Positions 42,765 through 62,762 of a stretch of 64,000 bases of DNA are shown here, one piece after another; position 1 is the stretch's first letter, and the number at the start of each line of letters is the position of its first letter. This stretch comes from a virus, in IMG/VR virus record IMGVR_UViG_3300009374_000001, positions 1-64,000 of that record. The stretch is one strand, 5' to 3'. Both the position numbers and the translations under genes were made by a program. A model generated the notes under the pieces. It did not search any database and was not told the DNA's origin. It was given only the letters and a program-made list of their open reading frames with translations.

Positions 42765-42768
42765 TATA

Positions 42769-44058: not shown

Positions 44059-44454
44059 ATGGGTATTATTAAAACGTTTGAGAACTTTATTAATGAAAGA
44101 ATAGATTATCTTGAAGTTGCAAGTTCTCTTATTAAGCACTATGGCTTTAATACTAAAGTAAAGTTTGTTAAAAATTTAAAAAATAAAGCTGAATATGATT
44201 GGGATAGTGACACAATAAGATTAAGAACTTCATATAAAACAGAGAAAGATTTTCTTATTACTGTTTTACATGAAATTAATCATGTCAGGGGTGTATATGA
44301 AATGGGTGTTAAGAAATATAAAGATGAATATAAGCATGCAGGTGACATTGCTTTAGCTAATAACGGAGATTTTTATAAAGATAACAGCTTTGAAATAAAG
44401 GCTGAAGATTGGGCACAAAGAGAAGTGAAAAAATGGATAAATAAAATAAAATAA
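44059..44454 (+). CDS. Tagged HExxH metallopeptidase-like protein (class A tag)
   Basis: The tag is MGIIKTFENFINER. Residues 71-75 are HEINH, a zinc-binding HExxH motif in a helix (DFLITVLHEINHVRGVYEMG), and a later EIKAEDWA could give the third ligand, as in IrrE/ImmA-type peptidases. The 131-residue length is a minimal gluzincin. It is preceded directly by the ligase-like gene. I infer a virion-delivered protease that cuts a host or phage protein, or an inactive relative. Confidence 0.6.
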   Translation: MGIIKTFENFINERIDYLEVASSLIKHYGFNTKVKFVKNLKNKAEYDWDSDTIRLRTSYKTEKDFLITVLHEINHVRGVYEMGVKKYKDEYKHAGDIALANNGDFYKDNSFEIKAEDWAQREVKKWINKIK

Positions 44455-44458
44455 TAAG

Positions 44459-44728
44459 ATGAAACAATCAGAATTAAGAAAACTAATTAGATTAACAATT
44501 AAAGAGCATATGAATGAAGATTCTTCTGGATCATTTCGGTCTAAGAAGCAAGTAGAACGGTTGACAAAGGGCAAATCTATTCGAGAAACATTTGTAAACC
44601 CATCGGTTGAATATAACGTTACTAACGATGGCGGTATTGTAATTTTTGGTAAAAGAGAAAAAGTTCATTTTACAAAGCAAGACGTTGAAGCTTTAGTAAA
44701 ACAACTTAAAAGAAAAGGGATTGCTTAA
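44459..44728 (+). CDS. Tagged small protein of unknown function (class B tag)
   Basis: The tag is MKQSELRKLIRLTIKEHMNE, followed by a Ser-rich spacer. The C-terminal ~55 residues (VTNDGGIVIFGKREKVHF, QDVEALVKQLKRKGIA) form a small alpha/beta domain. The stop overlaps the next ATG (TAATG). No motif is recognised. Confidence 0.65.
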   Translation: MKQSELRKLIRLTIKEHMNEDSSGSFRSKKQVERLTKGKSIRETFVNPSVEYNVTNDGGIVIFGKREKVHFTKQDVEALVKQLKRKGIA

Positions 44729-45315
44729 TGATTTTAGAGTTTAAACAATTCGTAGAGTCTATCCAGTCTGAACATACCGGAGAGAAGGTAATTATATTCC
44801 CTGGGAGATTTCAGCCATTTCATAATGGGCATCTTAAAGCATTTGAAAAAGCTTATAAAATGTTCAAGTTAAGAGTTATACCTATACAAATAGTTAGTAA
44901 GAATAAGAACTCTCCAATTAAAGACAAAAAGCTCTTACAAGATATGGGTAATGCATTAGCAAAAGAGAATAAGAAGTTTATTGCAGATATACTGGTAAAG
45001 CCTGACAATGTTATGGGAAATATACCGCAAATGATTAAATGGCTTAGAAGCATTGGTTATAATCCAATGGGCATGGGAACTGGTGAAGATAGATATAAAG
45101 GCTATAAAGGCCAAATTGATTATCTTTTATCAGATAAGTCAGATGTGCCTACAGAAGAATTTGAATTAAAGGTAGTAGATGATAGAACAAGTGGTGCAAG
45201 TGGAACCGCAGTAAGACATGCATTTCAAGATGATGACGCAGATGCACTTAAAGCGATGATTCCAGAGGTACTATTCTTTAAATTTTATAATAAAATAAAA
45301 AAAGCAATACAATGA
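44728..45315 (+). CDS. Tagged NMNAT/cytidylyltransferase-like nucleotidylyltransferase (class A tag)
   Basis: After a short tag (MILEFKQFVES) the protein has an HxGH nucleotidylyltransferase start (FPGRFQPFHNGHLKAFEKA, HNGH at 32-35) and SGTAVRHAF at 158-166, which fits the second ATP-binding motif (ISxTxxR) of NMN adenylyltransferases such as NadR/NadM. The 195-residue length is typical. Such enzymes make NAD from NMN and ATP. In an injected protein this could restore NAD drained by host defence. Another nucleotide substrate is possible. Confidence 0.7.
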   Translation: MILEFKQFVESIQSEHTGEKVIIFPGRFQPFHNGHLKAFEKAYKMFKLRVIPIQIVSKNKNSPIKDKKLLQDMGNALAKENKKFIADILVKPDNVMGNIPQMIKWLRSIGYNPMGMGTGEDRYKGYKGQIDYLLSDKSDVPTEEFELKVVDDRTSGASGTAVRHAFQDDDADALKAMIPEVLFFKFYNKIKKAIQ

Positions 45316-46319
45316 AGATAACAGAACAGAAATTGAGAAAACTTATACAAGAAAACATTAAGACCCTTACTGAAAAACTTAAAAGATCATCTAGTGAATA
45401 TGATAAATTTGAACAATGGCTAATCACTCTTGATCAAATGACAGTTGGTCATATACTTGACACGTTTGGGACAAAGTTACCAGACGGAGCAGATTTTGAT
45501 ACACCAGGCTATTTCCAAGATGAAGAACTTGACTACGACGATGCTTACGATTTCTTTAGGAGTAACATGGGTGCATCTTGGGTTCAAGATATGGAAAAGT
45601 TTTATAGCAAAAATAAATCTAAATGCGATAAATACACAGAAAGATATACAAAGCAACTTAAAATCTTTAACGAAAATCATTTAAATGAAAAAGACGTATG
45701 GTCTATTAAAGGCTTAGACTCTTCAGATCAACAGGATGTTAATTTAATGAAGCGCGCATTTGAACTTGCAAAAGTTAAAATTATAAAGATAGAAAAATAT
45801 AACGATAGAGCTTACTTTATTACTTTAATTGCAAAAGATGGCAAAGCCATTATTGATACAGAGATTGATACTTTAAGTAATGTCTTTTATATGAATGATA
45901 ATAGAGGCAGAAATAAAATCGGCACACTGCATAGAACAAGTGAAGTTGTTAAGGGTATTAAAGCTCTTGCAAAACTTCCAGGATTTGGACAAACAAGCTT
46001 AGTTAAAGTTAAAGAGTCTTTGGACGAAACATATAAGCTTCGCAAAATTATTAGAAAAGAACTTCAAACTTTGAATGAAGCTAAGATGAGCAAGAAAGAA
46101 TATCAAGAAGCAGCAAAAGAATTTGTTAATCAATGGGAAGATGATTTTAAACAAAGAATCAAAGATGACGGCGGATTTGATTATGAAGAAATGACATATG
46201 ACACTGCTCAAGCTAATAACTTATGGAACGATGGACCTAAGATGGACGCAGATTGGTTATATGACTATATAGAAAAAGAATTAGAAAAGCGACAGTGGTA
46301 TAAAAAATACACAAAATAA
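45312..46319 (+). CDS. Protein with class B tag at the N-terminus and a second, internal copy
   Basis: The 335-residue protein starts MKITEQKLRKLIQENIKTLT with LTE as a possible site. Residues 243-257 are LRKIIRKELQTLNEA, another class B tag with a good LNE|A site. The first part (25-235) contains an acidic domain and then a basic alpha/beta domain ending in a helix-hairpin-helix-like KLPGFGQTSLVKVKESL. The part after the internal tag (about 80 residues) is charged and Trp-rich. This looks like a fusion of two tagged proteins that could be separated by prohead protease cleavage. Confidence 0.65.
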   Translation: MKITEQKLRKLIQENIKTLTEKLKRSSSEYDKFEQWLITLDQMTVGHILDTFGTKLPDGADFDTPGYFQDEELDYDDAYDFFRSNMGASWVQDMEKFYSKNKSKCDKYTERYTKQLKIFNENHLNEKDVWSIKGLDSSDQQDVNLMKRAFELAKVKIIKIEKYNDRAYFITLIAKDGKAIIDTEIDTLSNVFYMNDNRGRNKIGTLHRTSEVVKGIKALAKLPGFGQTSLVKVKESLDETYKLRKIIRKELQTLNEAKMSKKEYQEAAKEFVNQWEDDFKQRIKDDGGFDYEEMTYDTAQANNLWNDGPKMDADWLYDYIEKELEKRQWYKKYTK

Positions 46320-46329
46320 AAATAATACA

Positions 46330-46557
46330 GTGAAAGAGCAAGAATTAAGAAAACTTATTAGAAAAGAGCTTAACGAACGTATTTCTGGTTATGATGAATT
46401 TGATGTAGCAGTTAAAATTGATTCTGCTATGGAAAAGCTTGACAAAAATATGGGAGTTGAAGTATTTGCAAAGGGTATTGCTAATATGTTTAATGACGTA
46501 TATGGGAAAGAATATGCAAAAGATTTTTATGAAAATATTAACAAAAAATATCAATGA
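46330..46557 (+). CDS. Small tagged protein (class B tag), GTG start
   Basis: The start is GTG at 46330. The tag is MKEQELRKLIRKELNERISG, nearly the same as the internal tag in the preceding gene. The remaining 55 residues (KIDSAMEKLDKNMGVEVFAK) look helical. The stop overlaps the next start. It could be a small DNA-associated internal protein; the function is unknown. Confidence 0.65.
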   Translation: MKEQELRKLIRKELNERISGYDEFDVAVKIDSAMEKLDKNMGVEVFAKGIANMFNDVYGKEYAKDFYENINKKYQ

Positions 46558-47435
46558 TTAAAACTTTTAAAGAGTTCTTGAAGCTTTATGAAAGCGGTAA
46601 TGCTATTGATGACGTAAGACCTATTTTAGGTAGAGAGATACCTGAAACCTTAGAGCATGTAGAAAGGGATCTTTTAAATGCAGTAGGTTTAGATGGTTTT
46701 GATATAGATGCAGCAGTTATAGGTTCAGCTGGAAAGAAAGGCGATGATATAGAATCAGGAGATATTGATATTGCGGTAAGTATTGATAAACTTGCAGGTG
46801 AAAACTCAACTTCTATCAATGAAGTATTAAAGTTTTTAAATATGACTTTAAAAGCTGCAGGTTATGATACTGCAGTTAATTATGGATTCAAACAAGTTTC
46901 AGTGCCATTTCCTATTAAAGGAGATAAAGCCAATGGATATTGTCAAGTTGACTTAATGCTTTCGGATAGCTTAGAATGGTCAAAATTTATGTATCATAGT
47001 CCAGATTTTACCAAGACAGAGTCAAGATATAAAGGTGCATACAGAAACTTATTAATGATGGCAATTGCAACAGAGTCTAAAAAAGAAGCCACTAAGAAAC
47101 TAGACACTGGAGAAACCGTTGAATATGAGCAGTTAGTCATTAGATTAAATACAGGTCTTGTTAAAGTTAGAAAGTCTTTACAGGGTAAACGTGGCTTGGT
47201 TAAAACACCTAAACTTTTAAAAGATTTTGATAGAGTTGTAAGCAATGTTCCAGATGAAGTAGCTGAAGCTTTATTTGGTGAAGGCGTTAAAGCTAAAGAT
47301 ATAATGACATTTGAAAAATGCTGGGATCTTTTTAATTCAAAAACATTTCCATATAAAAATAAAGAAGATATTATTATACAAAAATTTGAAATATATTTAA
47401 GTAAATCAAAGTTACCATTCCCTGAGGAACTATAA
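46554..47435 (+). CDS. Tagged DNA polymerase beta-type nucleotidyltransferase (class A tag)
   Basis: The tag is MIKTFKEFLKLYES with LYE|S as a possible cleavage site. The nucleotidyltransferase core is VIGSAG (56-60), GDIDIAVSI (69-77) with D70 and D72 as metal ligands, and CQVDLML (130-136) with D133 as the third. This is the active-site layout of the pol-beta superfamily, which includes CCA-adding, poly(A) and toxin-type nucleotidyltransferases. Length is 293 residues. The target may be RNA, protein or a small molecule. A second member lies at 48741. Confidence 0.75.
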   Translation: MIKTFKEFLKLYESGNAIDDVRPILGREIPETLEHVERDLLNAVGLDGFDIDAAVIGSAGKKGDDIESGDIDIAVSIDKLAGENSTSINEVLKFLNMTLKAAGYDTAVNYGFKQVSVPFPIKGDKANGYCQVDLMLSDSLEWSKFMYHSPDFTKTESRYKGAYRNLLMMAIATESKKEATKKLDTGETVEYEQLVIRLNTGLVKVRKSLQGKRGLVKTPKLLKDFDRVVSNVPDEVAEALFGEGVKAKDIMTFEKCWDLFNSKTFPYKNKEDIIIQKFEIYLSKSKLPFPEEL

Positions 47436-48337
47436 TGAAAATTGAATCATATTCAAATTATACAACTCTACAAGAGGCTAAGCTTTATGGCTTTACTATT
47501 AAACAACTGTTAAACAGTACCTTAAAATTTAAAGGTAAGACTCTAATTTATTTTGATACTGAAACACTAGGGCTTAAGCCTCATGTAGATTATATTCAGC
47601 TTACGCAAGTTGCAGCAATTGCGTATGATGGCTCAACTATGAAAGAACTTGATTCGTTTAACACTAAGGCTAAATTAGGAGACCCCGCAAAGCATTTATT
47701 AAAACCTGATTCTGATGAAAGAAAAGGATGGGAAGAAAGACAAAAGGCAAGAGGTAAAAGTAAAGGGTTAAGCAATCCTGATGAACTCTTAAAAATGACA
47801 AGATACGGCGATGAGGGTGTTGATTTTATAGAAGAGAAAAAATCAATAGAAGATTTTATTTCATTTATATCTAAGTTTAAAGATCCTATTTTAATTGCGC
47901 ACAATGCACCCTTTGATATGAAATTTATGCATGTAAGAGCTAAATTATTTGATTTAAAGTTCCCTAAAGCTGAAGTATTAGATACATTAAAATTGTCAAG
48001 ACTTTATTTTGTTCCTCTTTTACAAGCTGCTGAGAATAGCAAAGAGTTAGAAAGTATTTTAACAGCTTTATCTAATAAGTTAAAAACAGGAGAACGTGGA
48101 AACAAAGTTTCATCGACGCTTGGAAATTTAGGAAAGGCGTTAGGCGTAAGTGTTGATTCATGGCATGACGCAAAAGCTGATGTTGAGATGTTAATGCAAA
48201 TTGTTGAAAGAATGAAAGAATTCTTTACCCAATACATTGATATAGATATTAGTAAGGAGCATCAGCATGCTGCAAAACTCGATGCTCTTTCTAAAAAGCC
48301 TTGGTGGTGGTCTAAGAAAAAGAAATACAGGATATAA
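47435..48337 (+). CDS. Tagged DEDDh 3'-5' exonuclease (class A-like tag)
   Basis: The tag is MKIESYSNYTTLQEA, with LQE|A as a good site. The exonuclease motifs of the DnaQ type are LIYFDTETLG (D41, E43), AHNAPFDMKF (D161) and WHDAKADVEML (H244, D249). The 300-residue length leaves about 70 residues of insertion between the first two motifs. The C-terminus is Trp/Lys-rich (KKPWWWSKKKKYRI). It may degrade host nucleic acid or trim phage DNA. It is not the polymerase proofreading domain, which is present in the gene at 56254. Confidence 0.8.
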   Translation: MKIESYSNYTTLQEAKLYGFTIKQLLNSTLKFKGKTLIYFDTETLGLKPHVDYIQLTQVAAIAYDGSTMKELDSFNTKAKLGDPAKHLLKPDSDERKGWEERQKARGKSKGLSNPDELLKMTRYGDEGVDFIEEKKSIEDFISFISKFKDPILIAHNAPFDMKFMHVRAKLFDLKFPKAEVLDTLKLSRLYFVPLLQAAENSKELESILTALSNKLKTGERGNKVSSTLGNLGKALGVSVDSWHDAKADVEMLMQIVERMKEFFTQYIDIDISKEHQHAAKLDALSKKPWWWSKKKKYRI

Positions 48338-48744
48338 TGAAAATTAAATCATATCCAAATTATATTACAGAAAATCCAGACAAGATCTATGTTGGTAAGG
48401 TAAATGAGTTTGATTATTTAAAATCAGAGCTTGATAATGCTAAGAAAGTTTTTAAAGAATTACAGAAGATGTACCCAGATATTCCAAAGTTTCCATTAGT
48501 CTTTAAAGATTTAAAGGGAAGAGGGAGTGGGTTTTTAACTACGACTAGATTAAGAGGCGGCAAGTTTATTTTTATAGATAAAATGACTATCGATAATACA
48601 GGTTTAACTAGTAACCCAGCGGACTATGCAGTGTGTCATGAATTTGCTCATGCAATTCTTGCACATACAAAGCAATCGCTTGCTCATAGTAAAGCACACG
48701 ACAAGCTTACATATAAACTTGCAAAAAAATTTAATTTAGTATGA
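48337..48744 (+). CDS. Tagged HExxH metallopeptidase-like protein, second copy type (class A-like tag)
   Basis: The tag is MKIKSYPNYITEN. Residues 101-105 are HEFAH within YAVCHEFAHAILAHTKQ, a zinc-binding HExxH motif, followed by histidines at 110, 117 and 121 that could supply a third ligand. The rest of the 135 residues is a small alpha/beta fold. It is not clearly related to the HEINH protein at 44059. The stop overlaps the next gene (ATGA). Confidence 0.6.
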   Translation: MKIKSYPNYITENPDKIYVGKVNEFDYLKSELDNAKKVFKELQKMYPDIPKFPLVFKDLKGRGSGFLTTTRLRGGKFIFIDKMTIDNTGLTSNPADYAVCHEFAHAILAHTKQSLAHSKAHDKLTYKLAKKFNLV

Positions 48745-49805
48745 AAATTAAATCATATACAAACTTCATTAATGAAGGTGGCTGGTCAAGTGCAAAGACA
48801 CAATCTACTGTATTAACCCCACATGTTTTAAAGCTTGCACATGAAACATTACAAAGTATTTTTAAAGAGTTTAATGCCTGGCTTGATAAAGAAGGAATGC
48901 CTCCGATGAAACCAATACGGGCAGTTGGCTCAGGCAGTTATTGGGAAGATGATTTAGTTAATCAACCAGATAAATTATATGGTGATATTGATTACTTATT
49001 TGAATATCCGATTTTAGAGTTTGATCCAAATCCTACAAATAATAGAAAAAATGAATTAGATACAATTAAGCTTTATAATGAAATGCTTTTAGATTGGATA
49101 AAGGCGTTTAAGCCAAATTCTGTTGATTATGAAGAGTCTGTTAAGATATCAAGCCCAACAAGTATTAAGCTTTTAATAATTCCAAAAGATGACATGTTTA
49201 TACAAGCAGACATTTTAATTACTAGTGGCATCTATAAAGATTGGGCGATAGGTAGATATACACCAGTAAAAGACATAAAAGGTTTTGTTATTGGCTATTT
49301 GTATAAAGCAATTGGCTTGACTTTAACCATGAGCTTTCTTGATAGAGGAGTAAGAGCAAAGTTTATTGATGGTAACTTAGTTAGTTTTAGAAAGAGAAAA
49401 AATGTCGAAGAGATGATTATTAGTTTAGACTTTGGCAACTTCTTATACGATATTGCTGAATGGGCAATGGAATTTGATGGTAAGAATAAAAAGAAGATGA
49501 AAGTACATAAGCTCCTAAAGCAGCAAAAAGGTTTAACAAGAGATAATGTTACACTTGAAAAATTCTGTGTAGGCATTAAGGGTCTTGCATATACATTAGA
49601 AATGAACGACTTATTACACATATTCTCTCTTTCAAGTGCAGATGACATGATAAACAAGACAGAAGAAAATTATATAAATTCAATATCTGATGTAAGGCAT
49701 AGCAGTAAGTTTAAGAAAGCTGAAACAGCTCATGCTAGGGCTGCTATGGAGAAGATATTTAAATTCATTGATTATGGAATAGAAACAGTAAGTAGAAGTT
49801 TATGA
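48741..49805 (+). CDS. Tagged pol-beta-type nucleotidyltransferase, second member (class A tag)
   Basis: The tag is MKIKSYTNFINEG with an INE|G site, the best match to the T4-type pattern. The core is VGSGSYWED (62-70), GDIDYLFEY (81-89) and MFIQADILI (152-160) with D82, D84 and D157 as likely metal ligands. The spacing differs from the gene at 46554, so they are separate family members and not a recent duplication. A basic helical C-terminal half follows. It overlaps both neighbours, consistent with operonic translation. Confidence 0.7.
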   Translation: MKIKSYTNFINEGGWSSAKTQSTVLTPHVLKLAHETLQSIFKEFNAWLDKEGMPPMKPIRAVGSGSYWEDDLVNQPDKLYGDIDYLFEYPILEFDPNPTNNRKNELDTIKLYNEMLLDWIKAFKPNSVDYEESVKISSPTSIKLLIIPKDDMFIQADILITSGIYKDWAIGRYTPVKDIKGFVIGYLYKAIGLTLTMSFLDRGVRAKFIDGNLVSFRKRKNVEEMIISLDFGNFLYDIAEWAMEFDGKNKKKMKVHKLLKQQKGLTRDNVTLEKFCVGIKGLAYTLEMNDLLHIFSLSSADDMINKTEENYINSISDVRHSSKFKKAETAHARAAMEKIFKFIDYGIETVSRSL

Positions 49806-52039
49806 AATCACTATATAAAGAAAAGAACTTAGACAAATTATTTAAACAGAGTCTTTTAGTAACAGAAAAGATTGACGCGCCTAGAATTAAGGTGAAGAAA
49901 GTTAACGATGGTTTTGAAATATTTAAGGCAAATTCAAATACGGCATTAAACGTAGTTGATAGAACTTTAACATCATTATACGAAAATGCGTATGAGCATT
50001 TTTCAAGTTTTTGGAAAGATATGATTGAAGAAGTCCCAGATAATTACATATTTGAAATGTATTATATGACTAATACAAAGCCAGTAAGAACTGAATATGA
50101 CAGGCTACCGAAGAATAATCTAATACTTATATCAATTCAAGTAATGGAGAATGATAAAGTTAAAAAGATTATTAGAGAGCCTAAGATACTAAATGAATGG
50201 GCAGATAAATTTGAAATAGAACACCCGCCTATTTTATTTAACGATAAATTAAGTGAGAATCAGAAATTTAAGTTAAAAGAGTTGCTATCACAGAGCAGTA
50301 AAGATGTTTTTGGGCTATTCAGTAATAGTTCATTTACAGCACATATTATGTCAGTGCTAGACCCTAGAATTCATGAGATGACACTTAACAAAGATACACA
50401 TAAGAATACTAATGGATTTATTTTTACATTTCATGCAGGAAAGGTTGTTTCTAATCTGCTACTACAGAGCTCTCTTAAAGAAAGTAATGATTCATATACG
50501 CCTAATGATTCATACGACTTAGTATTACTAGACTTAGTAGAATATATGATAAAAGATGAATCATGGGAGCATATTTTGCTTAAAGAACATGGTGAAGATT
50601 TAAGATATTTAGAGTGTATCTCAAATATTTTTAATATGTATATGGAAAAGAATATGCATAGACTTTTAGGAATGAGTTTAGAGAAAATGGATTTTGCAAA
50701 TAAGCCAGAATTTAAACTTAATAAAAAAAATATTAAGAACAAAAGAACTAACGAATTATTAGACATTCATGTTTTAAGTGAAATCTTTCAGGCAATGTTG
50801 GGTAGTTTCAGAAAGCATAGAAGCAAAGAAACTACACTAATTTCAAATGCTGCTATTACAGAAATAAATTTATTGATTGATAAGATTAATGAAAAGATAG
50901 GAAAAGAACCAGATATTATAGAGGACAGCGATGAAGTTAAAGATTTTGAAAGTTTTATGATTAGTGAAGGTAGAGATGAAATAATTAATAATATAAATCT
51001 TTCATTGAAAGACTTGGAGATTGATCAATTAAATTATATCAATACATACATTAATAAACAAGGATTAAGTTCAAAAATTAAAGAGATTTTTTCAGGCTTA
51101 GGCTTAACGACTGGTATAGATAAAGTAGTTAATGGCTTTTTATCTTTATTAGTTGGCGCAGGCGGATCATTAGAAGATAATATAGAAATAGTTGATAAAT
51201 TATCAATAGACGGGACGTTATTCAATGATTTAGATATTGGGAAGGTGTCAAATTTTAAGAATAATTTAATTACTAATAGCAAATTTCACACAAAGCTTAT
51301 CAAGACTTTTATTGACTGGGAGCCTAAAAAAATAGATAAATCTGCAATTGGAAAAGGAGAAGCATTTTTAATTGCTTTATTGGGCGGACGAAAAGCAGAA
51401 CATGGAGATATTAAAATAGGTGATAATAATTATGAAGTTAAAGGTAGAGGGGCTCGATTAAAAGCGCAAAGGGGCTATGGTACTTTTATAAATAATGAAA
51501 AAACTTTCATTAAAGATTTTTCTAGTGTTGTTAACTATGGGTTTACACCAAAAGAGAAAATAAATAATAAATATTTAGATAAAAAGAAAAATATACTACC
51601 CTTTAAAGAAATATCTAAAAACATTAACAATATTAATTTTACTGATAAAGGATTATCAATGTATAGAGAGTTTATATTAAATGCAGATAACCCACTTAAA
51701 GCTGTAGAAGTATTACAAGAGTTGTTTAGAAAGATTTTTGTAAATGTTAGTAATTTTAATGAATTATCATTTTTAGATACTTTAAATTCATCCGCTTCAG
51801 AAAAAAAGATGCTTATGGATTTTAAATTAGAGTACAGCAGATTTATATTTGATTATTATAAGAAACAAGAAAAATGGGATTATTTAATGTTTATAAATTT
51901 AGATAACGCTAATTATGTCTGCATTGAAAAATCTAATGAATTTGTGAATTTAATAAAAAATGGAAAAATAAAAATAAATGTAAGCCATAGCTGGACCCAA
52001 ACACAAAATAATGTTCCACAATATACATTAGTGGCTTAA
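49802..52039 (+). CDS. Large protein with ligase-like N-terminal and PD-(D/E)XK-like C-terminal regions
   Basis: The 745-residue protein has no clear tag, but starts MKSLYKEKNLDKLFKQSLLV. Residues 21-43 (TEKIDAPRIKVKKVNDGFE) resemble ligase motif I with K23, NYIFEMYYM (81-89) a later motif, and NGFIFTF (204-210) the motif IV of RNA/DNA ligases. Residues 517-553 have E520 in a helix, HGDIKIGDNNYEVKGRGARL (534-553) with D536, E545 and K547, the PD-(D/E)XK nuclease signature. I infer a nucleic-acid ligase-like plus nuclease protein. Long helical middle. Activities are inferred from motifs only. Confidence 0.6.
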   Translation: MKSLYKEKNLDKLFKQSLLVTEKIDAPRIKVKKVNDGFEIFKANSNTALNVVDRTLTSLYENAYEHFSSFWKDMIEEVPDNYIFEMYYMTNTKPVRTEYDRLPKNNLILISIQVMENDKVKKIIREPKILNEWADKFEIEHPPILFNDKLSENQKFKLKELLSQSSKDVFGLFSNSSFTAHIMSVLDPRIHEMTLNKDTHKNTNGFIFTFHAGKVVSNLLLQSSLKESNDSYTPNDSYDLVLLDLVEYMIKDESWEHILLKEHGEDLRYLECISNIFNMYMEKNMHRLLGMSLEKMDFANKPEFKLNKKNIKNKRTNELLDIHVLSEIFQAMLGSFRKHRSKETTLISNAAITEINLLIDKINEKIGKEPDIIEDSDEVKDFESFMISEGRDEIINNINLSLKDLEIDQLNYINTYINKQGLSSKIKEIFSGLGLTTGIDKVVNGFLSLLVGAGGSLEDNIEIVDKLSIDGTLFNDLDIGKVSNFKNNLITNSKFHTKLIKTFIDWEPKKIDKSAIGKGEAFLIALLGGRKAEHGDIKIGDNNYEVKGRGARLKAQRGYGTFINNEKTFIKDFSSVVNYGFTPKEKINNKYLDKKKNILPFKEISKNINNINFTDKGLSMYREFILNADNPLKAVEVLQELFRKIFVNVSNFNELSFLDTLNSSASEKKMLMDFKLEYSRFIFDYYKKQEKWDYLMFINLDNANYVCIEKSNEFVNLIKNGKIKINVSHSWTQTQNNVPQYTLVA

Positions 52040-52047
52040 ATATATAA
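52034..52047 (+). promoter_or_regulatory. Second copy of the GCTTAAATATATAA element
   Basis: The 14 bases are identical to 42391-42404, and lie at the stop of the large ligase/nuclease-like gene before the tagged gene at 52066. Possible late promoter; low certainty. Confidence 0.3.
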
Positions 52048-52065
52048 AAAAACAAATATAAAATT

Positions 52066-52413
52066 ATGACTAAAATTTATGAAAACTTTGAAGACTTTGT
52101 TTTTAATGAACTTAATAAAGAAATTGATATTGAACTAGTTGATGAAAGAGTTGAGGTTAAGCGTAAATACACAGATAAATATCCATCTAAATCCATTAAC
52201 GCAAAAGCAAGAGTTAGAAGTGCAGTGCTAAGTGCAATGAAAGATGGGATAGTTACTGAAGAGGAACTTGATAATATTATAGCTGCAGCACAGGGCAGTA
52301 AAGCATGGAAGCGTAAAAATACTAAGCTTTTTAAAGTTACAGAAGATGGCATTAAACTTTCAAAATTTGGTTCACGAATCTATAGAAGAACTCTAGTTAC
52401 AGAGGAAAAATAA
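52066..52413 (+). CDS. Tagged small protein of unknown function (class A tag)
   Basis: The N-terminus MTKIYENFEDFVFNELNKEI matches the class A tag pattern. The remaining ~95 residues are basic and rich in helix-forming residues (AKARVRSAVLSAMKDGIVTE then a C-terminal Arg/Lys-rich part). No enzyme motif is seen. The stop overlaps the next ATG (TAATG). It closes the tagged island. Confidence 0.65.
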   Translation: MTKIYENFEDFVFNELNKEIDIELVDERVEVKRKYTDKYPSKSINAKARVRSAVLSAMKDGIVTEEELDNIIAAAQGSKAWKRKNTKLFKVTEDGIKLSKFGSRIYRRTLVTEEK

Positions 52414-53741: not shown

Positions 53742-56243
53742 ATGACAGTAATTGACGTTGGGCATTCATCAGAATTATTAATTGACTATTTTAATGGAGA
53801 TGAATTAGCAGCAAATACTTTTTTGAATAAATATGCACTTCGAGATGAAGATGGTAATTTACTAGAGCATCACCCAGATGAAATGCATATGAGACTTTCA
53901 AGAGAATTTGCAAGAATAGAACGAAAGTATAAAAACCCATATAGTAAAGATGAGATATATGATTTACTAAAAGACTTTAAGTATCTTGTACCACAAGGAA
54001 GTCCGATGTTTGGGATTGGTAATAAGCACCAAGTCATTTCATTGTCAAATTGCTTTGTGATTGGTAATGGTGCTGATTCTTATGGCGGTATTACAATGGT
54101 TGATGAAGAGCAGATACAGCTTATGAAACGAAGAGGTGGTGTAGGCCATGATCTTTCTCATATAAGACCTAATAAAACTAAAGTGCATAATTCTGCAATG
54201 ACCTCAACCGGTTTAAAGCCATTCATGCAGCGATTTTCAAATTCAACTAGAGAAGTTGCACAAGGAGGTCGAAGAGGAGCACTAATGCTCACGCTTGATA
54301 TTAGACATCCAGACGTTGAAAGTTTTATTGATGCAAAGATGAATAAGATTGACATAACTGGTGCTAATATTTCATTAAAATTAAGTGATGAATTCATGAG
54401 AGCTGTTGATGCTAATAAAACATTTAAGCTTCAATATCCAGTAGAATCTGAAAATCCGAAGATAGAACTTGATATTGACGCAAAGTCTTTATGGGATCAT
54501 ATTATCAATAATGTTTGGTCAAGCGCAGAACCTGGTATATTTTTCTGGGATAAAGTGCTAAGCGAGTCACCAGCAGATATGTATGCAGAAGAAGGCTTTA
54601 GAACTATCTCCAGCAATCCCTGCGGTGAGCTCCCTCTCTGTCCTTATGATTCTTGTAGACTTTTAGCTATAAATTTATCAAGTTATGTTGAAAACGAATT
54701 TACAGAAGATGCAAGTTTTGATTTTGATTTATTGGCAGAACACACAAAGATTGGTCAAAGACTTTTAGATGATATGATTGACTTAGAAATTGAAAAGATT
54801 AATGCAATTTTAAGAAAGATAAGTTCTGACCCTGAGAACAATAGTATTAAAAGAGTTGAAAGAGAACTTTGGCAAAAGATAAAAGAAAAGGCTATACAAG
54901 GAAGAAGAACTGGGTTAGGTGTAACTGCAGAAGGCGATATGCTTGCATATATGAATATGCAATATGGCTCAGATGAGGCAATAAAATTCTCAGAACAGGT
55001 TCATAAGTTAATAGCGGTTAGTTCATACGTAAGTTCTATAGAGCTTGCTAAAGAAAGAGGCTCATTTCCAATTTGGGATTATGACACAGAGAAAGAAAAT
55101 GATTTTCTTAAACGAATCGATATGAATTTATCTATGCAACAAAGAAAAGATTATAAAAGATATGGTAGGAGAAATATTGCAAACCTAACTCTTGCGCCTA
55201 CTGGTACTGTAAGCATGATGACTCAGACTACATCAGGGATTGAACCGGTATTTCTTATTCAATATACAAGAAGAAAGAAAGTAAACCCAAATGAAATTGC
55301 AACATCAGATTTTGTAGATGATCTAGGCGATGCATGGACAGAGCATACTGTATTTCATAATGGTTTTAAAAGATGGATGAATATAAATGGGATATTTGGT
55401 GAGCTTAATGATGAAGAGATAGAAAAATTTGTAAAAGAATCCCCATATTACAAAGCAACATCAAATGACATTAACTGGGTTCAAAAAGTTAAAATGCAAG
55501 GCGTAATACAAAAATGGATAGATCACTCAATTTCAGTTACAGTGAATGTACCACAAGATACTAAAAAGTCAACAGTAAATGAGGTTTATATGACTGCATG
55601 GAAAGCTGGATGTAAAGGTGTAACTTTATATAGAGAAGGGAGTAGAAGTGGTGTACTAATTGCAAAAGAAAAGAAAGAAGAAGAAAAGTTTGAAAAAATG
55701 GCAGCAGTTGAAAGACCTAAGACATTAGAGTGCGATATACACCACAGAATAGCAACGGGGGAGGCGTGGTTGGTTATTGTAGGAAAGTTATTGGATAAGC
55801 CTTATGAAATATTTGCATTTAGAAAATGGACAGAAGATGAAGAGTCTGAAGATAAATTTAATCTGCCACGTTATATCAAGCTAGGCAGACTTGAAAAGAG
55901 GTCTCATGGGAAATATGATTTAATTTGTGGTAAAAACGATAACTTCATCGTAAAGGATATTACAAACCTGTTTAAATCAGAGGAAGAAGAAGCATTAACA
56001 AGATTAATTTCATCTGCGCTTCGACATAGAATGGGCGTTGAATATATCGTCGATCAATTAAATAAAGTCCCATCGAATATTACAAGTTTTAGTAAAGTTG
56101 TTGCTAGAACGCTGAAACAATATATCACAGAAGATATAGAATTAATAAATAAAACATGTACAGAATGCGAAGATCCTGACGGACTAATTATTCAAGATGG
56201 ATGTTTAAGTTGCAAAAGTTGTGGTTTTAGTAAATGTGGATAA
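53742..56243 (+). CDS. nrdJ: Class II (cobalamin-dependent) ribonucleotide reductase
   Basis: The 833-residue protein has the class II RNR features: SLSNCFVIGN with the first redox cysteine, GGRRGALMLTLDIRHPDVES, NPCGELPLCPYDSC with the radical-site cysteine, APTGTVSMMTQTTSGIEPVF, and a C-terminal double CxxC (CTEC and SCKSCGFSKC) typical of NrdJ. It makes dNTPs from ribonucleotides using adenosylcobalamin, and needs no NrdB, which is absent here. It follows dUTPase. The phage relies on host cobalamin. Confidence 0.85.
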   Translation: MTVIDVGHSSELLIDYFNGDELAANTFLNKYALRDEDGNLLEHHPDEMHMRLSREFARIERKYKNPYSKDEIYDLLKDFKYLVPQGSPMFGIGNKHQVISLSNCFVIGNGADSYGGITMVDEEQIQLMKRRGGVGHDLSHIRPNKTKVHNSAMTSTGLKPFMQRFSNSTREVAQGGRRGALMLTLDIRHPDVESFIDAKMNKIDITGANISLKLSDEFMRAVDANKTFKLQYPVESENPKIELDIDAKSLWDHIINNVWSSAEPGIFFWDKVLSESPADMYAEEGFRTISSNPCGELPLCPYDSCRLLAINLSSYVENEFTEDASFDFDLLAEHTKIGQRLLDDMIDLEIEKINAILRKISSDPENNSIKRVERELWQKIKEKAIQGRRTGLGVTAEGDMLAYMNMQYGSDEAIKFSEQVHKLIAVSSYVSSIELAKERGSFPIWDYDTEKENDFLKRIDMNLSMQQRKDYKRYGRRNIANLTLAPTGTVSMMTQTTSGIEPVFLIQYTRRKKVNPNEIATSDFVDDLGDAWTEHTVFHNGFKRWMNINGIFGELNDEEIEKFVKESPYYKATSNDINWVQKVKMQGVIQKWIDHSISVTVNVPQDTKKSTVNEVYMTAWKAGCKGVTLYREGSRSGVLIAKEKKEEEKFEKMAAVERPKTLECDIHHRIATGEAWLVIVGKLLDKPYEIFAFRKWTEDEESEDKFNLPRYIKLGRLEKRSHGKYDLICGKNDNFIVKDITNLFKSEEEEALTRLISSALRHRMGVEYIVDQLNKVPSNITSFSKVVARTLKQYITEDIELINKTCTECEDPDGLIIQDGCLSCKSCGFSKCG

Positions 56244-56253
56244 AGGAATTTAA

Positions 56254-57657
56254 ATGCTATTAAGTATTGAGCAAGATGATAATAGATTAACTGTTTCGTA
56301 TTATGATAAAGAAGGTGAAACAGCATATAAGATATATGATTTAAATCAATTTAAAAATTGGTATGTTTGTCATGATGGTGATAGATATAAATCTGATATT
56401 TACACGAATTGGGATGGGAGACCTGTTAAACAAGCAAATGCAAAGTTTTTAAATAAACATAGTATTATTGATTTTTTGCAAACTCTGCCTCAAGAAGATA
56501 AAGACTTAATTTTTGCACACAATTATCCAAAGATGTATTTTATGGATATTGAAGTTGAAGTAACTGATGGCTTCCCAGAAGCAAAAAAAGCAGAAAATAG
56601 AATTATTACAGTTTCTATAGCAACGCCTGATAAAGAAATTATAATCTTAGGGTTAAAAGATCTTTCTCCTAATGAAATCACAAATATCGAAATTGATATA
56701 CATAATCATTTTCTTAAAGTTACAGATGATACTTGGAAATTAAAGTATATTAAGTTTAATTCTGAGTATGATATGGTATATACGCTATTGACTAAATATA
56801 TAAGTAAATTGCCCATTATATCTGGGTGGAATTTCATAAGCTACGATTGGACATATATTATTAATCGCTGCTATAGATTACAAATAAACCCAGATATTGC
56901 AAGCCCTTCATTAAAACTAGAAGGTGCTGATAACACGCCAATGCATGTTGGTATTGTAGATTATATGAGACTCTATCATCAGTATGATAGGACAGTAAAA
57001 GTTAAAGAATCATCAACTTTAGCGCATGTTTCGAATATAGTACTTGGTGTATCTAAAGTTAAAAACAATATGAATCTTAAATTACTATATGAGCAGAAAT
57101 ATGCTCAATATGTTTTTTACAATGCCGTTGATTCTATATTAGTTCATATGCTTGATCAAAAGCTCAAGCTAGCAGATGTGCTATATACAGTTGCAAGTAT
57201 GACTAAATCAACTTTATACAGAGCAAGTTCTCCTGTTACTATAACAGAAAGTCTTTTGCTACCGCTATTTAAGCAAAATAACAAGGTATTAGCAAGAGAT
57301 AATGCTGAAAAACAGAAAAAAATAAAGTACACTGGCGCGTACGTTAAAGCACCGAAGGTCGGGTTTCATAAGGGCGTTGCTTGTTTTGACTTTGCAAGTC
57401 TATATCCATCTATGATGAGACAATTTAACATATCTCCAGAAAATTTAAAAAATAAGGTGCCTCCAGTAGCTGTTGAAAAAACTAAAAATGAAAGTAATAT
57501 AGTAACTATTAATGGCTGCGTCTTTGATAAAGAAGACTCATATCTTAGAATGATTTTAACAGCTCTATATGCTAAGCGAAAAGAGTATAAGGGAAAAGCG
57601 TTTAACGCAAAGTTAAAAATGGAAAAAATAAAGAAACAATTAAAAGAAATTAAATAA
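56254..57657 (+). CDS. 43A: DNA polymerase gp43, part A: exonuclease and palm start
   Basis: The 467-residue part has the family B exonuclease motifs, Exo I FMDIEV (D98, E100), Exo II GWNFISYDW (191-199), Exo III YNAVDSILV (289-297), and polymerase motif A DFASLYPSMM (379-388). It ends in the fingers region (KRKEYKGKAFNAKLKMEKIK) after motif A and lacks motifs B and C. Those are in the gene at 58650. The two parts must pair to give a complete enzyme. An AAGGA site precedes the ATG. The stop is not a simple frameshift of one long frame, because two other genes lie between. Confidence 0.85.
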   Translation: MLLSIEQDDNRLTVSYYDKEGETAYKIYDLNQFKNWYVCHDGDRYKSDIYTNWDGRPVKQANAKFLNKHSIIDFLQTLPQEDKDLIFAHNYPKMYFMDIEVEVTDGFPEAKKAENRIITVSIATPDKEIIILGLKDLSPNEITNIEIDIHNHFLKVTDDTWKLKYIKFNSEYDMVYTLLTKYISKLPIISGWNFISYDWTYIINRCYRLQINPDIASPSLKLEGADNTPMHVGIVDYMRLYHQYDRTVKVKESSTLAHVSNIVLGVSKVKNNMNLKLLYEQKYAQYVFYNAVDSILVHMLDQKLKLADVLYTVASMTKSTLYRASSPVTITESLLLPLFKQNNKVLARDNAEKQKKIKYTGAYVKAPKVGFHKGVACFDFASLYPSMMRQFNISPENLKNKVPPVAVEKTKNESNIVTINGCVFDKEDSYLRMILTALYAKRKEYKGKAFNAKLKMEKIKKQLKEIK

Positions 57658-57676
57658 AATAAAACAAACACATAAT

Positions 57677-57853
57677 ATGAAAGCATATGAAAAGTTAGTA
57701 GAAACGCTACAGAACACTGATAAAGATGTTTACAAATTTTATGAAAAGGGCAATAGCTCAGCTGGAACTCGTATTCGTAAAGCAATGCAAGAAGTTAAAA
57801 GATTAGCACAAGAACTGCGTGTTGATATTCAAAATGTTAAAAATGCAAAATAA
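57677..57853 (+). CDS. Histone H1-like (Hc1-like) small DNA-binding protein
   Basis: The 58-residue protein, reading MKAYEKLVETLQNTDK then KFYEKGNSSAGTRIRKAMQE and RLAQELRVDIQNVKNAK, closely resembles the Hc1/histone H1-like proteins common in Bacteroidota, with the core FYEKGNxxAGTRxRK. It could bind phage or host DNA or modulate replication. It is too short for most automatic gene lists. The gene lies between the two halves of the DNA polymerase and before the clamp. The likeness supports a Bacteroidota host. Confidence 0.7.
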   Translation: MKAYEKLVETLQNTDKDVYKFYEKGNSSAGTRIRKAMQEVKRLAQELRVDIQNVKNAK

Positions 57854-57865
57854 AGAAAGTAATAA

Positions 57866-58633
57866 ATGTTAAATTTAAAAATAGACAAAATAAATGTAGC
57901 TCAACTTTCAGAATTCATCAGTTCTGTTATAAGCATCTCAGAGTTTGTGTATATGAGAATCATTGGTGATGAGCTAATATCAACTTGCTATTTGCCACAA
58001 AAAGATGCAGTAAAACAGCATAGAGCAAATCTGAATGATGTATTTACTTTCAGTAGTGACTTTAGTAAAATAGAATCTAAAGTTGTTAAAGTGGCGTTTT
58101 TTGATGGCATAAAAGTATTAAAAGCTTTATCGCATTTTTCTGGAAAAGAAATTTCTGGTATATTAACATTAAGCGAAGAAGATGAATCATATACAGGTTC
58201 ATCATTGATGCTGGTAAGTGATAATTTAACTATAGAACTTGCGTGCGCAGAACCCACGCTAGGTTTTACAGATATACCAGAAGATAAGCTAAATGGGATA
58301 TTATCCGCAAATAATTATAAGTTTAATTTTACATTAGAACATGAAATGATTAATAAACTTAAATCATTATTTAAGCTCGAATCAGATAAAGATACATTTA
58401 AAGTTCATTTAAAAGACAATAAAGTAAACATTATTGGCAATATGTATAATATTGCTGCTGCTGATGTAGATAGTTTGAATACGACCAGTGAATATGAAAC
58501 TACCCTTTACAAAAAGTATATTTCATTGTTAGGAAAATATAACTATAAAACGTCAGTATGTGAGAATAAACTAGTGTTTGAATCGCCAGATAAAAATACA
58601 ACATTAACTGTAGCAGTATGTGAAGAAAATTAA
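57866..58633 (+). CDS. 45: DNA polymerase sliding clamp (gp45-like)
   Basis: The 255-residue protein has the two-domain beta pattern of gp45 clamps: YMRIIGDELISTCYLPQKDA, VAFFDGIKVLKALSHFSGKE, and a second half FTLEHEMINKLKSLFKLESD then VNIIGNMYNIAAADVD. T4 gp45 is 228 residues. The clamp encircles DNA and holds the polymerase. Here the gene lies between the two polymerase parts. Its function is assigned by pattern and context; sequence identity of clamps is always low. Confidence 0.65.
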   Translation: MLNLKIDKINVAQLSEFISSVISISEFVYMRIIGDELISTCYLPQKDAVKQHRANLNDVFTFSSDFSKIESKVVKVAFFDGIKVLKALSHFSGKEISGILTLSEEDESYTGSSLMLVSDNLTIELACAEPTLGFTDIPEDKLNGILSANNYKFNFTLEHEMINKLKSLFKLESDKDTFKVHLKDNKVNIIGNMYNIAAADVDSLNTTSEYETTLYKKYISLLGKYNYKTSVCENKLVFESPDKNTTLTVAVCEEN

Positions 58634-58649
58634 GTCTTAGGGTTTATTA

Positions 58650-59795
58650 ATGAACTTAAATGACTTATCAAAAGAAGATCTAAAGCACCAATACGATATA
58701 GCAGAATCAGAATCTTTAAAATTTAGAAATTATGAACAAGCTGTAAAGTTAATTTTAAACTCAATGTATGGAGCTTTTGGCAATAACTATTTTCATTTTT
58801 TTAATATTGACTTAGCAGAAGCAATTACACTACAGTGCCAAGATGCAATATTGTATACTGAGGTTGCTATCAATAAATATTTTAATGATTTTTGGCATAA
58901 AGATAAGGAATTACATAAATTATTAGATATTGAAGTTACTGATTCAATTAAGGACGCCGTAGTTATATATATTGATACAGATTCTTGTTATGTTTCATTT
59001 GAAGAAGTTTATCAAAATGCAAATTATGATGGTGATGTAACAGAATTCATTAAAGACATATATGAATATAGATTAAAAAACTATATTAAAAATGTACTTT
59101 ATAAATATTCGGATAAATGGAACACTGATTCTTTTTTAAAGTTTGAATTAGAAACTATTGCATATTCTGCAATTTGGCTATCAAAAAAGAAATATATTCA
59201 AAACATTGCATGGGAAGATCCTGGCATTGATCATAACAAGTTAGAATTTATTAAAGCTACAGGTTTTGAAATTGTCCAATCATCAAGCCCTAGCTTTGTA
59301 AGAACTAAATTAAAAGAAGCTTTAATTTTAATGTTTAAAGATGATAATCCAAATTTAAGTGAACTTGTTTCATTTCTTAAAGATGTTAAGAAAGAATTTA
59401 AGTTAGCAAATATTGAAGAAATTAGCTTTAGTAAACGAGTCAATAACATTGAAAAATACATTATAGATGATTATTCACATTTTGAAGTTGCAAAATCTTG
59501 CCCAATAAATGTAAGAGCAGCAGGGTATTATAATTATCTTTTAAACAATTCAGAATATAAGAGTAAGTATCATAATATACCAAGTGGTGAAAAAGTTAGA
59601 ATATATTTTACAGATGACAATTTATCTAACGTATTTGCATTTATGCCTGATGAGCATCCGTATGAATTTGCACCTAACGTTGACTATGATTTGCAATTTG
59701 AAAAGTCAATATTAGATCCGCTGAACAGAGTTATTAAAGCAGTAGGTTTAAAGACTCTTAATTCGAACTTAATTTATGCAAAAACACTTTTTTAA
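58650..59795 (+). CDS. 43B: DNA polymerase gp43, part B: fingers end, palm and thumb
   Basis: The 381-residue part begins with a short helical lead and then has motif B KLILNSMYGAFGN (33-45) and motif C YIDTDSCYVSF (107-117) with catalytic aspartates. It continues through the palm and thumb, with KKKYIQNI near the KKxY site that contacts the primer. It lacks the exonuclease and motif A. A TTAGGG site precedes the ATG. The C-terminus ends AKTLF; no clear clamp-binding box (QxxLxxFF-like) is seen. It must pair with the gene at 56254. Confidence 0.85.
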   Translation: MNLNDLSKEDLKHQYDIAESESLKFRNYEQAVKLILNSMYGAFGNNYFHFFNIDLAEAITLQCQDAILYTEVAINKYFNDFWHKDKELHKLLDIEVTDSIKDAVVIYIDTDSCYVSFEEVYQNANYDGDVTEFIKDIYEYRLKNYIKNVLYKYSDKWNTDSFLKFELETIAYSAIWLSKKKYIQNIAWEDPGIDHNKLEFIKATGFEIVQSSSPSFVRTKLKEALILMFKDDNPNLSELVSFLKDVKKEFKLANIEEISFSKRVNNIEKYIIDDYSHFEVAKSCPINVRAAGYYNYLLNNSEYKSKYHNIPSGEKVRIYFTDDNLSNVFAFMPDEHPYEFAPNVDYDLQFEKSILDPLNRVIKAVGLKTLNSNLIYAKTLF

Positions 59796-59993: not shown

Positions 59994-61133
59994 ATGGCAA
60001 AATCAAAATTTTCATTTGATGATTTAAACGCTGAACTAGAAAAGTCATCAACGACATTTAGTTTAGGAACTAGAATGGATAAATCTACATTCGCAGATGT
60101 AACTGAATTTATAAATACAGGAAATTATGCACTAAACGCATGTCTTTCAGGTTCATTATTTAAGGGTTGGCCAAATAATAGAACTATGGCCATTGCAGGA
60201 CCAAGCGGTACTGGAAAAACATTTTTAGTATTAAATTCAATTAGAGAAGCAATCAGGATGGGCTATAACATTGTATTTTATGACTCTGAAGCTGCAGTGG
60301 ATAAAGAACTTATGGCTAAATTTAATATTGATACTACAAAAGTTCGATATGAACCAGTCGCGACAGTTCAAGAATTTAGAACAAAAATTACTGGGCTTAC
60401 AGATTTTGTGCAAAAGAGACTTCGTAAGAATGAAGATGTGCCGAAGTTAATGGTTATTTTGGATTCAGCTGGAAGTCTTGCAACAGATAAAGAAGTTGAT
60501 GATGCAATAACAGGTTCTAGCAAAGCTGATATGACAAGAGCAAAAGTACTAAAAAGCATATTTAGAATCATTACAGTAAGATTAGCAGAATGTAAAATAC
60601 CTATGATATTTACAAATCATACGTATATGACACAGAGCTTTATTAGCCAATCAGTTGCAGGCGGTGGAACAGGCCCTGAATATTCTGCTTCGATTATTTT
60701 ATTCTTGACAAAGGCACAGCTAAAAGAAAAAGATGTAAAAGCAGGAATTATTGTTACTGCAAAGCCAAACAAGAATAGATTTGCAAAACCTAACCCTATA
60801 AAATTTCATATTCATTATACTAAAGGGATGAATCCTTATGTCGGGCTTGAGCAGTATATTGATTGGAAAGATATTGGTATTGCCAAGGGAAAGATAGTAA
60901 AAGGCGAAAAGGTTTTAGTCAAAACAGCTAGGCAATGGATCTGTAAGCATCTTGATGAAACAGTTTCAAATGCAGATTTTTTTACAAGCAAAGTATTTAC
61001 ACAAGAAGTACTTGAAAAAATAAATGAAAAAATCCAGCTATTATTTAATTATGGTGATGTTGAAGATCATGAGACGACTGAAGATTTTTTAAGCCAAACT
61101 AAAGAAGTTGATGAAGAAGAAGCTAACGTTTAA
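59994..61133 (+). CDS. uvsX: UvsX-like RecA-type recombinase
   Basis: The 379-residue protein has Walker A GPSGTGKT (69-76) and a RecA-like core: FYDSEAAVDKELMAKF, then KLMVILDSAGSLATDKE as Walker B, and FTNHTYMTQSFISQS for DNA binding. The C-terminal acidic tail (DHETTEDFLSQTKEVDEEEA) resembles that of UvsX. It promotes strand exchange for recombination-dependent replication. T4 UvsX is 391 residues. An AAGGA site precedes it. The downstream gene starts inside its end. Confidence 0.85.
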   Translation: MAKSKFSFDDLNAELEKSSTTFSLGTRMDKSTFADVTEFINTGNYALNACLSGSLFKGWPNNRTMAIAGPSGTGKTFLVLNSIREAIRMGYNIVFYDSEAAVDKELMAKFNIDTTKVRYEPVATVQEFRTKITGLTDFVQKRLRKNEDVPKLMVILDSAGSLATDKEVDDAITGSSKADMTRAKVLKSIFRIITVRLAECKIPMIFTNHTYMTQSFISQSVAGGGTGPEYSASIILFLTKAQLKEKDVKAGIIVTAKPNKNRFAKPNPIKFHIHYTKGMNPYVGLEQYIDWKDIGIAKGKIVKGEKVLVKTARQWICKHLDETVSNADFFTSKVFTQEVLEKINEKIQLLFNYGDVEDHETTEDFLSQTKEVDEEEANV

Positions 61134-61422
61134 TAGAGATAAATTCAAAATTAAACACATATTAGGTATTGAGAAAGAATTAGATTCATGGCCAGATGCA
61201 AATGATTTAATTTATATACTCATTAAAAAGAAGCATGATCATATTAGATGGAACGGGAGTATGAGCTTCTCAGATATTAAAATTAAACACTCATATATTA
61301 GAGGCTTTGATGATAAAGTTGATGTAGCAATTGAAGATCTTATAAAACAAGGGATAATTAAACTAGTAAGCGAAACAGAGGATAAGAAACAATATATGAT
61401 AATTAAAAACCCATTCGAATAA
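61111..61422 (+). CDS. Small protein between uvsX and gp41, winged-helix-like end
   Basis: I place the start at ATG 61111, within the uvsX end, rather than the in-frame TTG at 61108. The 103-residue product is basic at the start (KKKLTFNRDKFKIKHIL) and ends with EDLIKQGIIKLVSETEDKKQ and YMIIKNPF, which has the recognition helix and wing spacing of a winged-helix domain. It abuts the gp41 ATG (TAATG). A DNA-binding helper of the recombination or helicase complex is possible. Confidence 0.6.
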   Translation: MKKKLTFNRDKFKIKHILGIEKELDSWPDANDLIYILIKKKHDHIRWNGSMSFSDIKIKHSYIRGFDDKVDVAIEDLIKQGIIKLVSETEDKKQYMIIKNPFE

Positions 61423-62762
61423 TGAATATATCACAAGATTTTGAAAAAGTATTTTATGCACTATCGTTAGAAAGACCTAAGTATTTAAATAAAATACAAG
61501 CAGGATTCTATGCGAGCAAAGAACTTGATATTATGTCAATGCTTGCTAAGAAATTTTATGAAAGATTTAAAGAGACTCCGTCTTCAAGTCAAATGAAGTT
61601 GCTTGTTCAAAATAGTAAGCAGGCAAAGAATAGAATTAAAGATAATATCATTGACTTAGTATATAATGTTGAATTAAGTGAATATGACAATGAATGGCTA
61701 GAATCAACAGCAGAAGGTTGGATACGCTGGCGTAATTTTGATAGAACGTTGATAGATACAGTTGAGTACATTAAGACTACTGAGATTACTCCAGAAACTG
61801 TAGAAAGCATTATTACTAAAGCAAAAATCTTAATTAATGATAGAAATGCTATATCATTTACTTCTGATATCGGATTAGATTTTTTTAATTTTGACAATCA
61901 TAATCAAAAGAGCGAAGAAAAAATTGCAAGTCATTATGACTTTGTTAATCAAGCGCTTGGCGGTGGTTTTGATAAAAAGAGTCTTATTGTTTATGCAGGA
62001 GAGCAGAGCATTGGTAAGTCCATATTTCTTGCAAACGATGCAGGGAATTTCATGAGAATGGGTCATAACGTTGCAGTTATAACTCTAGAGATGTCAGATC
62101 ATAAATTCGTAAAGCGAATAGGTGCTAACGTGCTAGATATAACAATGGCAGAATATGATACAAAGTCAAAAAACAAAAAATATATGAAACGGCGTCTTGA
62201 TAGAGTTACAGTAGGGTTAGTTCCTCCTGGAGAATTGTATATTAAACAATTCCCTACTTCACAAGCTACAGTTAATGACCTTGAACTTCATCTTACAGAA
62301 ATTGAAGAAAATAAAGGAATTAAATTATCCGTAATTGTTATAGATTATATTAACATTCTTGCAAATTATCGAAATACAAATTCTGAAAATACTTATATGA
62401 AGATTAAACAAATTGCAGAAGATTTAAGAGCAATGGCTGTAAGAAATGATTGGCTAATTATTACAGCAACGCAGATTAATAGATCTGGCTGGGACAGCTC
62501 AGAGATTTCAATGGGAGTTATTGCAGAATCAGCAGGCCTTGCTCACACAGCAGACGCAGTATTTGGTATTATACAAAATGATGAAATGCATGCTGATAAT
62601 ACATACTGGTTAAAACTTTTAAAAGTCAGAGATGGTGAGGGAAAGGGTTTAAAATTCAAGCTAGATATAGATTATTCGCACATGAGAATAACTGAAACTA
62701 CACAGACGAGTACCAGCAGTATATTCACAAAACAAATGACAGATGATGAAAAAACGAGATAA
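61422..62762 (+). CDS. 41: DnaB-family replicative helicase (gp41-like)
   Basis: The 446-residue protein has Walker A GEQSIGKS (193-200), Walker B SVIVIDYINIL, and a DnaB-type H4 segment TATQINRSGWDSSEIS, with an N-terminal helical domain of about 150 residues. This unwinds duplex ahead of the polymerase and works with the primase at 39199. T4 gp41 is 475 residues. It overlaps the next gene by 20 bases. Confidence 0.85.
   Translation: MNISQDFEKVFYALSLERPKYLNKIQAGFYASKELDIMSMLAKKFYERFKETPSSSQMKLLVQNSKQAKNRIKDNIIDLVYNVELSEYDNEWLESTAEGWIRWRNFDRTLIDTVEYIKTTEITPETVESIITKAKILINDRNAISFTSDIGLDFFNFDNHNQKSEEKIASHYDFVNQALGGGFDKKSLIVYAGEQSIGKSIFLANDAGNFMRMGHNVAVITLEMSDHKFVKRIGANVLDITMAEYDTKSKNKKYMKRRLDRVTVGLVPPGELYIKQFPTSQATVNDLELHLTEIEENKGIKLSVIVIDYINILANYRNTNSENTYMKIKQIAEDLRAMAVRNDWLIITATQINRSGWDSSEISMGVIAESAGLAHTADAVFGIIQNDEMHADNTYWLKLLKVRDGEGKGLKFKLDIDYSHMRITETTQTSTSSIFTKQMTDDEKTR

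Follow-up and report, generated by a model that had tools for sequence, protein, structure and literature searches.

The window analysed here, a stretch of 64,000 nucleotides belonging to a virus record of 75,247 bases, carries a gene for a 58-residue Hc1-like protein that is a bare, short helical domain and is encoded among genes for the copying and recombination of DNA. The missing lysine-rich tail and the place among DNA-copying genes point to a small paired-helix helper of replication rather than to a chromatin protein. With moderate confidence, we read the product as a small self-pairing helical accessory of DNA replication or recombination and not as a bulk lysine-rich compactor of DNA.

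A genuine gene of the PF07432 family

The open reading frame runs on the plus strand from ATG to TAA (57677-57853), and its 58-residue product includes FYEKGNSSAGTRIRK. The PF07432 (Hc1) model of Pfam covers residues 1-56 of the protein (model positions 1-56 of 57) with 70.8 bits and an E-value of 8.3e-20, a score about three times the curated Pfam cut-off of 23.5 bits, and 57 of 57 aligned relatives also match the family. Relatives at about 40-64% identity exist in dozens of viral contigs and bacterial genomes. A pattern-based scan of viral contigs confirmed 82 viral stretches with relatives, 80 of which were kept, and an identical protein occurs in two contigs. Close homologue pairs differ mainly at the third codon position (for example, 9 of 11 and 30 of 41 differences), and synonymous differences outnumber non-synonymous ones in most of these pairs. 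This bias indicates that the reading frame is under protein-level selection, and the open reading frame is confirmed as a genuine gene, well beyond chance. The preliminary description of a phage-encoded, Hc1-like gene of 58 residues at this place is thus borne out by exact coordinates, an end-to-end PF07432 match, selection on the frame and a setting in a virus record with relatives in 82 viral stretches; the homology search that it proposed recovered the Hc1 family in viruses and in Bacteroidota-group genomes. Searches of PHROGs and NCBIfam found no family for the protein. None of the 57 family members has a PHROG match, so the gene is likely to go unlabelled in PHROG-based phage annotation. 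Searches of solved structures with the protein and with its profile gave no meaningful match, and a viral fold search with the predicted model returned weak helical-hairpin matches alone (best E 0.04).

Tail, charge and predicted fold

The sequence of the protein stops where the PF07432 domain stops. A C-terminal tail of more than 15 residues past the domain was found in 0 of 55 viral Hc1-like segments and in 1 of 36 Bacteroidota-group segments. The exception, L103, has a 28-residue Ala/Lys/Pro tail and so shows a two-part architecture amid mostly tail-less relatives. The lysine-rich C-terminal nucleic-acid-binding tail typical of chlamydial Hc1 is therefore missing from the 58-residue protein. 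Mean net charge is +1.9 in the phage rows and +3.0 in the bacterial rows, with a lowest value of -4, and the window's copy, at +5 and pI 9.7, stands at the basic end. Judged by composition, the family as a whole is weakly basic, near neutral.

An AlphaFold2 model with a mean pLDDT of 96 places helices at residues 2-24 and 27-57, and the protein is predicted to be a two-helix hairpin. The model has no strands and does not contain the winged-helix globular domain of eukaryotic linker histone H1. Helical hairpins come easily in structure prediction, and such models say nothing on dimerisation. Helix 2 keeps three heptads across 57 phage and bacterial proteins, with hydrophobic residues at positions 33, 37, 40, 44, 47, 51 and 54, basic residues at 34, 41, 48 and 55, glutamine at 38, 45 and 52, and acidic residues at 39, 46 and 53. 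Seven residues (A29, G30, T31, R32, R34, K35 and R48) are invariant in all 57 rows, and the hydrophobic moments of helix 1 and helix 2 exceed those of shuffled sequences (P 0.0006 and 0.0004, respectively). The heptad pattern would suit a paired-helix protein, either a dimer or a bundle, with a conserved basic row. A possible counterpart to the N-terminal dimerisation part of chlamydial Hc1 would be this heptad-patterned helix within the predicted hairpin, as modelled for the monomer. From these features we infer that the two helices fold as a hairpin and that helix 2 mediates self-pairing into a dimer or higher form, which would display R32, R34, K35, K41, R48 and K55 as a conserved basic row. 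This row could be the site of contact with nucleic acid or with an acidic partner, for instance the tail of the single-stranded DNA-binding protein (SSB).

The same basic row makes a DNA-coating role possible, in which a nucleoid-type protein would coat or compact phage (or host) DNA through the basic residues of helix 2 instead of a tail. The conservation of the six residues, the net charge and pI of the window's copy and the name of the family agree with such a role, and compaction for packaging has been proposed in an account of moraphages (PMC12619734). However, no viral segment has the lysine-rich tail, several viral copies have net charges of 0 to -4, conserved acidic positions lie in between the basic ones, and the missing part is the one that binds DNA in chlamydial Hc1 (PMC2848022). 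Overall, we regard DNA coating as unlikely, although it is the strongest of the rival readings. The chromatin-like control of phage or host DNA raised in the preliminary description is not supported, given the lack of the lysine-rich tail, the weakly basic family and the location of the gene in a replication and recombination module.

The replication and recombination neighbourhood

The genes around the Hc1-like gene lie on one strand with short gaps. The order begins with ribonucleotide reductase (RNR; 53742-56243, plus strand) and continues with the N-terminal part of a family-B DNA polymerase (PolB; 56254-57657, plus), which contains the exonuclease and motif A (DFASLYPS) and matches PF00136/PF03104 and phrog_2062 (E 5e-69). 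This part stops 19 bases ahead of the Hc1-like gene. A gene for a 255-residue protein (57866-58633, plus) begins 12 bases downstream and is followed by the C-terminal part of PolB (58650-59795, plus; motifs LILNSMYG and YIDTDS; PF00136; phrog_1918, E 3e-71), a UvsX/RecA-like recombinase (59994-61133, plus; PF00154, E 4e-15) placed in an order common to relatives, a 104-residue protein and a DnaB-like replicative helicase (61422-62762, plus; PF03796, E 1e-22). The 255-residue protein is sliding-clamp-like by fold alone: sequence-profile searches gave no family match, and in Foldseek the top PDB matches of its predicted model (mean pLDDT 60) belong without exception to PCNA, 9-1-1, beta-clamp or T4 gp45 (best E 6e-6). 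The phage SSB gene (38274-39188, plus; phrog_224, E 2.5e-33) is distant from the Hc1-like gene in this genome and adjoins it in many relatives.

The break in the polymerase falls after motif A and before motif B, and the Hc1-like and clamp-like genes occupy the gap within 56254-59795; some relatives have RNR genes in this gap as well. A frame error was rejected as the cause of the split, because two complete genes lie in the gap, other contigs repeat the order, and the PHROG matched by one half stops where that of the other half starts. A split gene 43 is known from Aeromonas phages 25 and 44RR (PMC2988022), whereas the spacer here consists of replication genes and not of an endonuclease gene.

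Elsewhere in the window, many unrelated genes (36783-37160 and 42429-52413) have one of two short N-terminal motifs, one like MKIKSYTNFINE and the other ELRKLIR. The motifs, defined by patterns picked after looking, occur in 7 and 4 of 61 open reading frames; among 834 internal segments, the corresponding counts are 4 and 3. Internal proteins of phage T4 have capsid-targeting leaders, and by analogy the proteins with these motifs may be packaged into the head.

The arrangement around the Hc1-like gene recurs in other phages. Among 53 distinct viral loci, retained after identical proteins were dropped, the commonest neighbours are SSB (phrog_1192/224), UvsX (phrog_97), a 5'-3' exonuclease (phrog_107) and a DnaB-type helicase. 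SSB, UvsX, clamp, PolB, exonuclease or DnaB lies within three same-strand open reading frames in 38 of the 53 loci; SSB is directly adjacent in 28 cases and the clamp in 7 cases. In the other 15 loci, the gene is found by RNR, PhoH, a nucleotidyltransferase or genes of no known function. The order Hc1, clamp, C-terminal PolB and UvsX is repeated in seven loci (L003, L009, L011-L014 and L021), and its first three genes also occur in L023. In the 462-kb phage LR756500, Hc1 is followed by the clamp and a match to C-terminal PolB lies a few kilobases further on. The UvsX-like gene of L003 and L021 seems to be interrupted, with two parts matched apart, perhaps by an intron or an inserted gene. Since many of these loci come from a few related marine lineages and related loci are over-represented, the counts describe an arrangement that recurs in several lineages and not 38 independent events. 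Bacterial copies share a neighbourhood among close relatives at most and none across clades. Gene neighbourhood may mirror the timing of expression instead of direct function. Even so, a position in one run with polymerase, clamp, recombinase and helicase would fit an accessory of replication or recombination.

As the gene immediately precedes the clamp gene in the window and its relatives, the protein could also be a helper of late transcription near the sliding clamp, with a role comparable to that of T4 DsbA. In T4, the gene of the small DNA-binding protein DsbA lies beside gene 33 and the clamp takes part in late transcription, but the T4 in vitro system revealed no effect of DsbA (PMC2988020). 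Moreover, family searches gave no link to DsbA or gp33, and the neighbours in most loci are SSB and UvsX and not the clamp, which leaves this role very improbable.

A broader form of the replication-accessory reading is that Hc1 domains without a tail serve widely as an accessory, unrecognised so far, of recombination-dependent replication in phages, perhaps as an SSB/UvsX mediator where the UvsY of T4 is missing; we offer it tentatively and rate it well below the accessory role itself. UvsY (PF11056) was present in 3 of the 10 records examined (L004, L006 and L019), which form one lineage with the Hc1 gene outside the replication module. No UvsY match was found in the six examined records with Hc1 inside the module, nor in the 476-kb record of L050, where Hc1 is again outside it. 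The pattern is a hint only, since the three positives belong to a single lineage and the records may be incomplete.

Distribution, host and comparison with known systems

PF07432 was found in 87 of 148 (59%) Bacteroidota-group genomes, drawn from the phylum group to which a Pedobacter locus belongs, and in 10 of 99 (10%) Planctomycetota, drawn likewise from the group of a locus in that phylum. Of 14 control genomes, 1 had it, a Bacteroides. The presence of the motif in Bacteroidota, claimed in the preliminary description, is thus upheld. Its proposed use as a marker of host phylum is suggestive only: the family is commonest in the Bacteroidota group, but it also occurs in Planctomycetota and, as a distant copy, in a Synechococcus phage. 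Shine-Dalgarno-like sites precede 11 of 56 starts against 5% of control ATGs, and such weak use is compatible with Bacteroidota without being specific to them. Other phages with a PF07432 gene have been predicted to infect Bacteroidota (PMC12619734). Together with the distribution of the family and the weak Shine-Dalgarno use, these predictions make a Bacteroidota host likely, though not proved, for the phage of the window.

In a 58-column tree with 79 copies from phages and bacteria, of the kind suggested in the preliminary description, the phage and bacterial labels clustered (8 changes against 26 when shuffled). The columns are too few to place the window's copy, and the tree neither dates nor places a transfer from host to phage. 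The copy L094, from a contig binned as Sphingobacteriales, groups inside a phage clade; this contig could be a prophage or phage sequence that was binned wrongly.

The frequent occurrence of the domain in Bacteroidota-group bacteria, some with many copies, allows a further reading, namely that the phage domain pairs with host Hc1-like proteins, putting them out of action or redirecting them. Mixed pairs of this kind are conceivable for a paired-helix domain, and the genome of Pedobacter sp. V48 (L088, G002) has 11 PF07432 copies. However, the phage gene lies in a replication module and not with host-takeover genes. Since the bacterial copies are mostly tail-less too, they offer the phage domain no obvious effector part to poison, and we consider host interference distinctly unlikely.

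Several known systems resemble the protein in part. Among small accessory proteins of T4-type phages, DsbA, UvsY and gp59 have DNA, SSB, the recombinase or the clamp as partners; the likeness is one of role only, a functional analogy, with no sequence relation in the family searches. The closest counterparts are the tail-less PF07432 members of Bacteroidota, which share the 57-residue domain, the AGTR(I/V)RK core, the length and the lack of a tail. The core is mostly AGTRIRK in phage copies and mostly AGTRVRK in genome copies, a difference to be read with the fact that the phage set was gathered by patterns favouring I and the genome set by an unbiased profile search. The two groups also differ in setting, with replication modules around the phage copies and not around the bacterial ones. 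Chlamydial Hc1 (HctA) combines an N-terminal dimerisation part with a lysine-rich C-terminal DNA-binding part (PMC2848022), the latter lacking in the window's protein. Kinship to HctA rests on the grouping made by Pfam, and the link is remote, since a BLAST survey in 2006 limited Hc1 to the Chlamydiales (PMC1403754). The 'histone H1' of Synechococcus phage S-SRM01 is likewise a phage-encoded PF07432-type protein, but it is distant (46% over 37 residues) and its gene lies among hypothetical, lysin and porin genes. PF07432 proteins were reported in 2025 from moraphages (PMC12619734), which, like the phage of the window, encode such proteins and have predicted Bacteroidota hosts; the replication-module context described here is not part of that account as far as it was available.

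Databases name the family a histone and phage papers echo that reading, yet phages and most of the Bacteroidota copies examined hold the helical domain alone, and phages keep the gene beside SSB, UvsX and the clamp. An accessory role, if true, would give a testable function to an uncharacterised domain present in over half of the Bacteroidota sampled. Set against these known systems, the recurring replication and recombination setting, the tail-less architecture as the rule in phages and the missing PHROG appear, within the literature searched, to be unreported features of the family.
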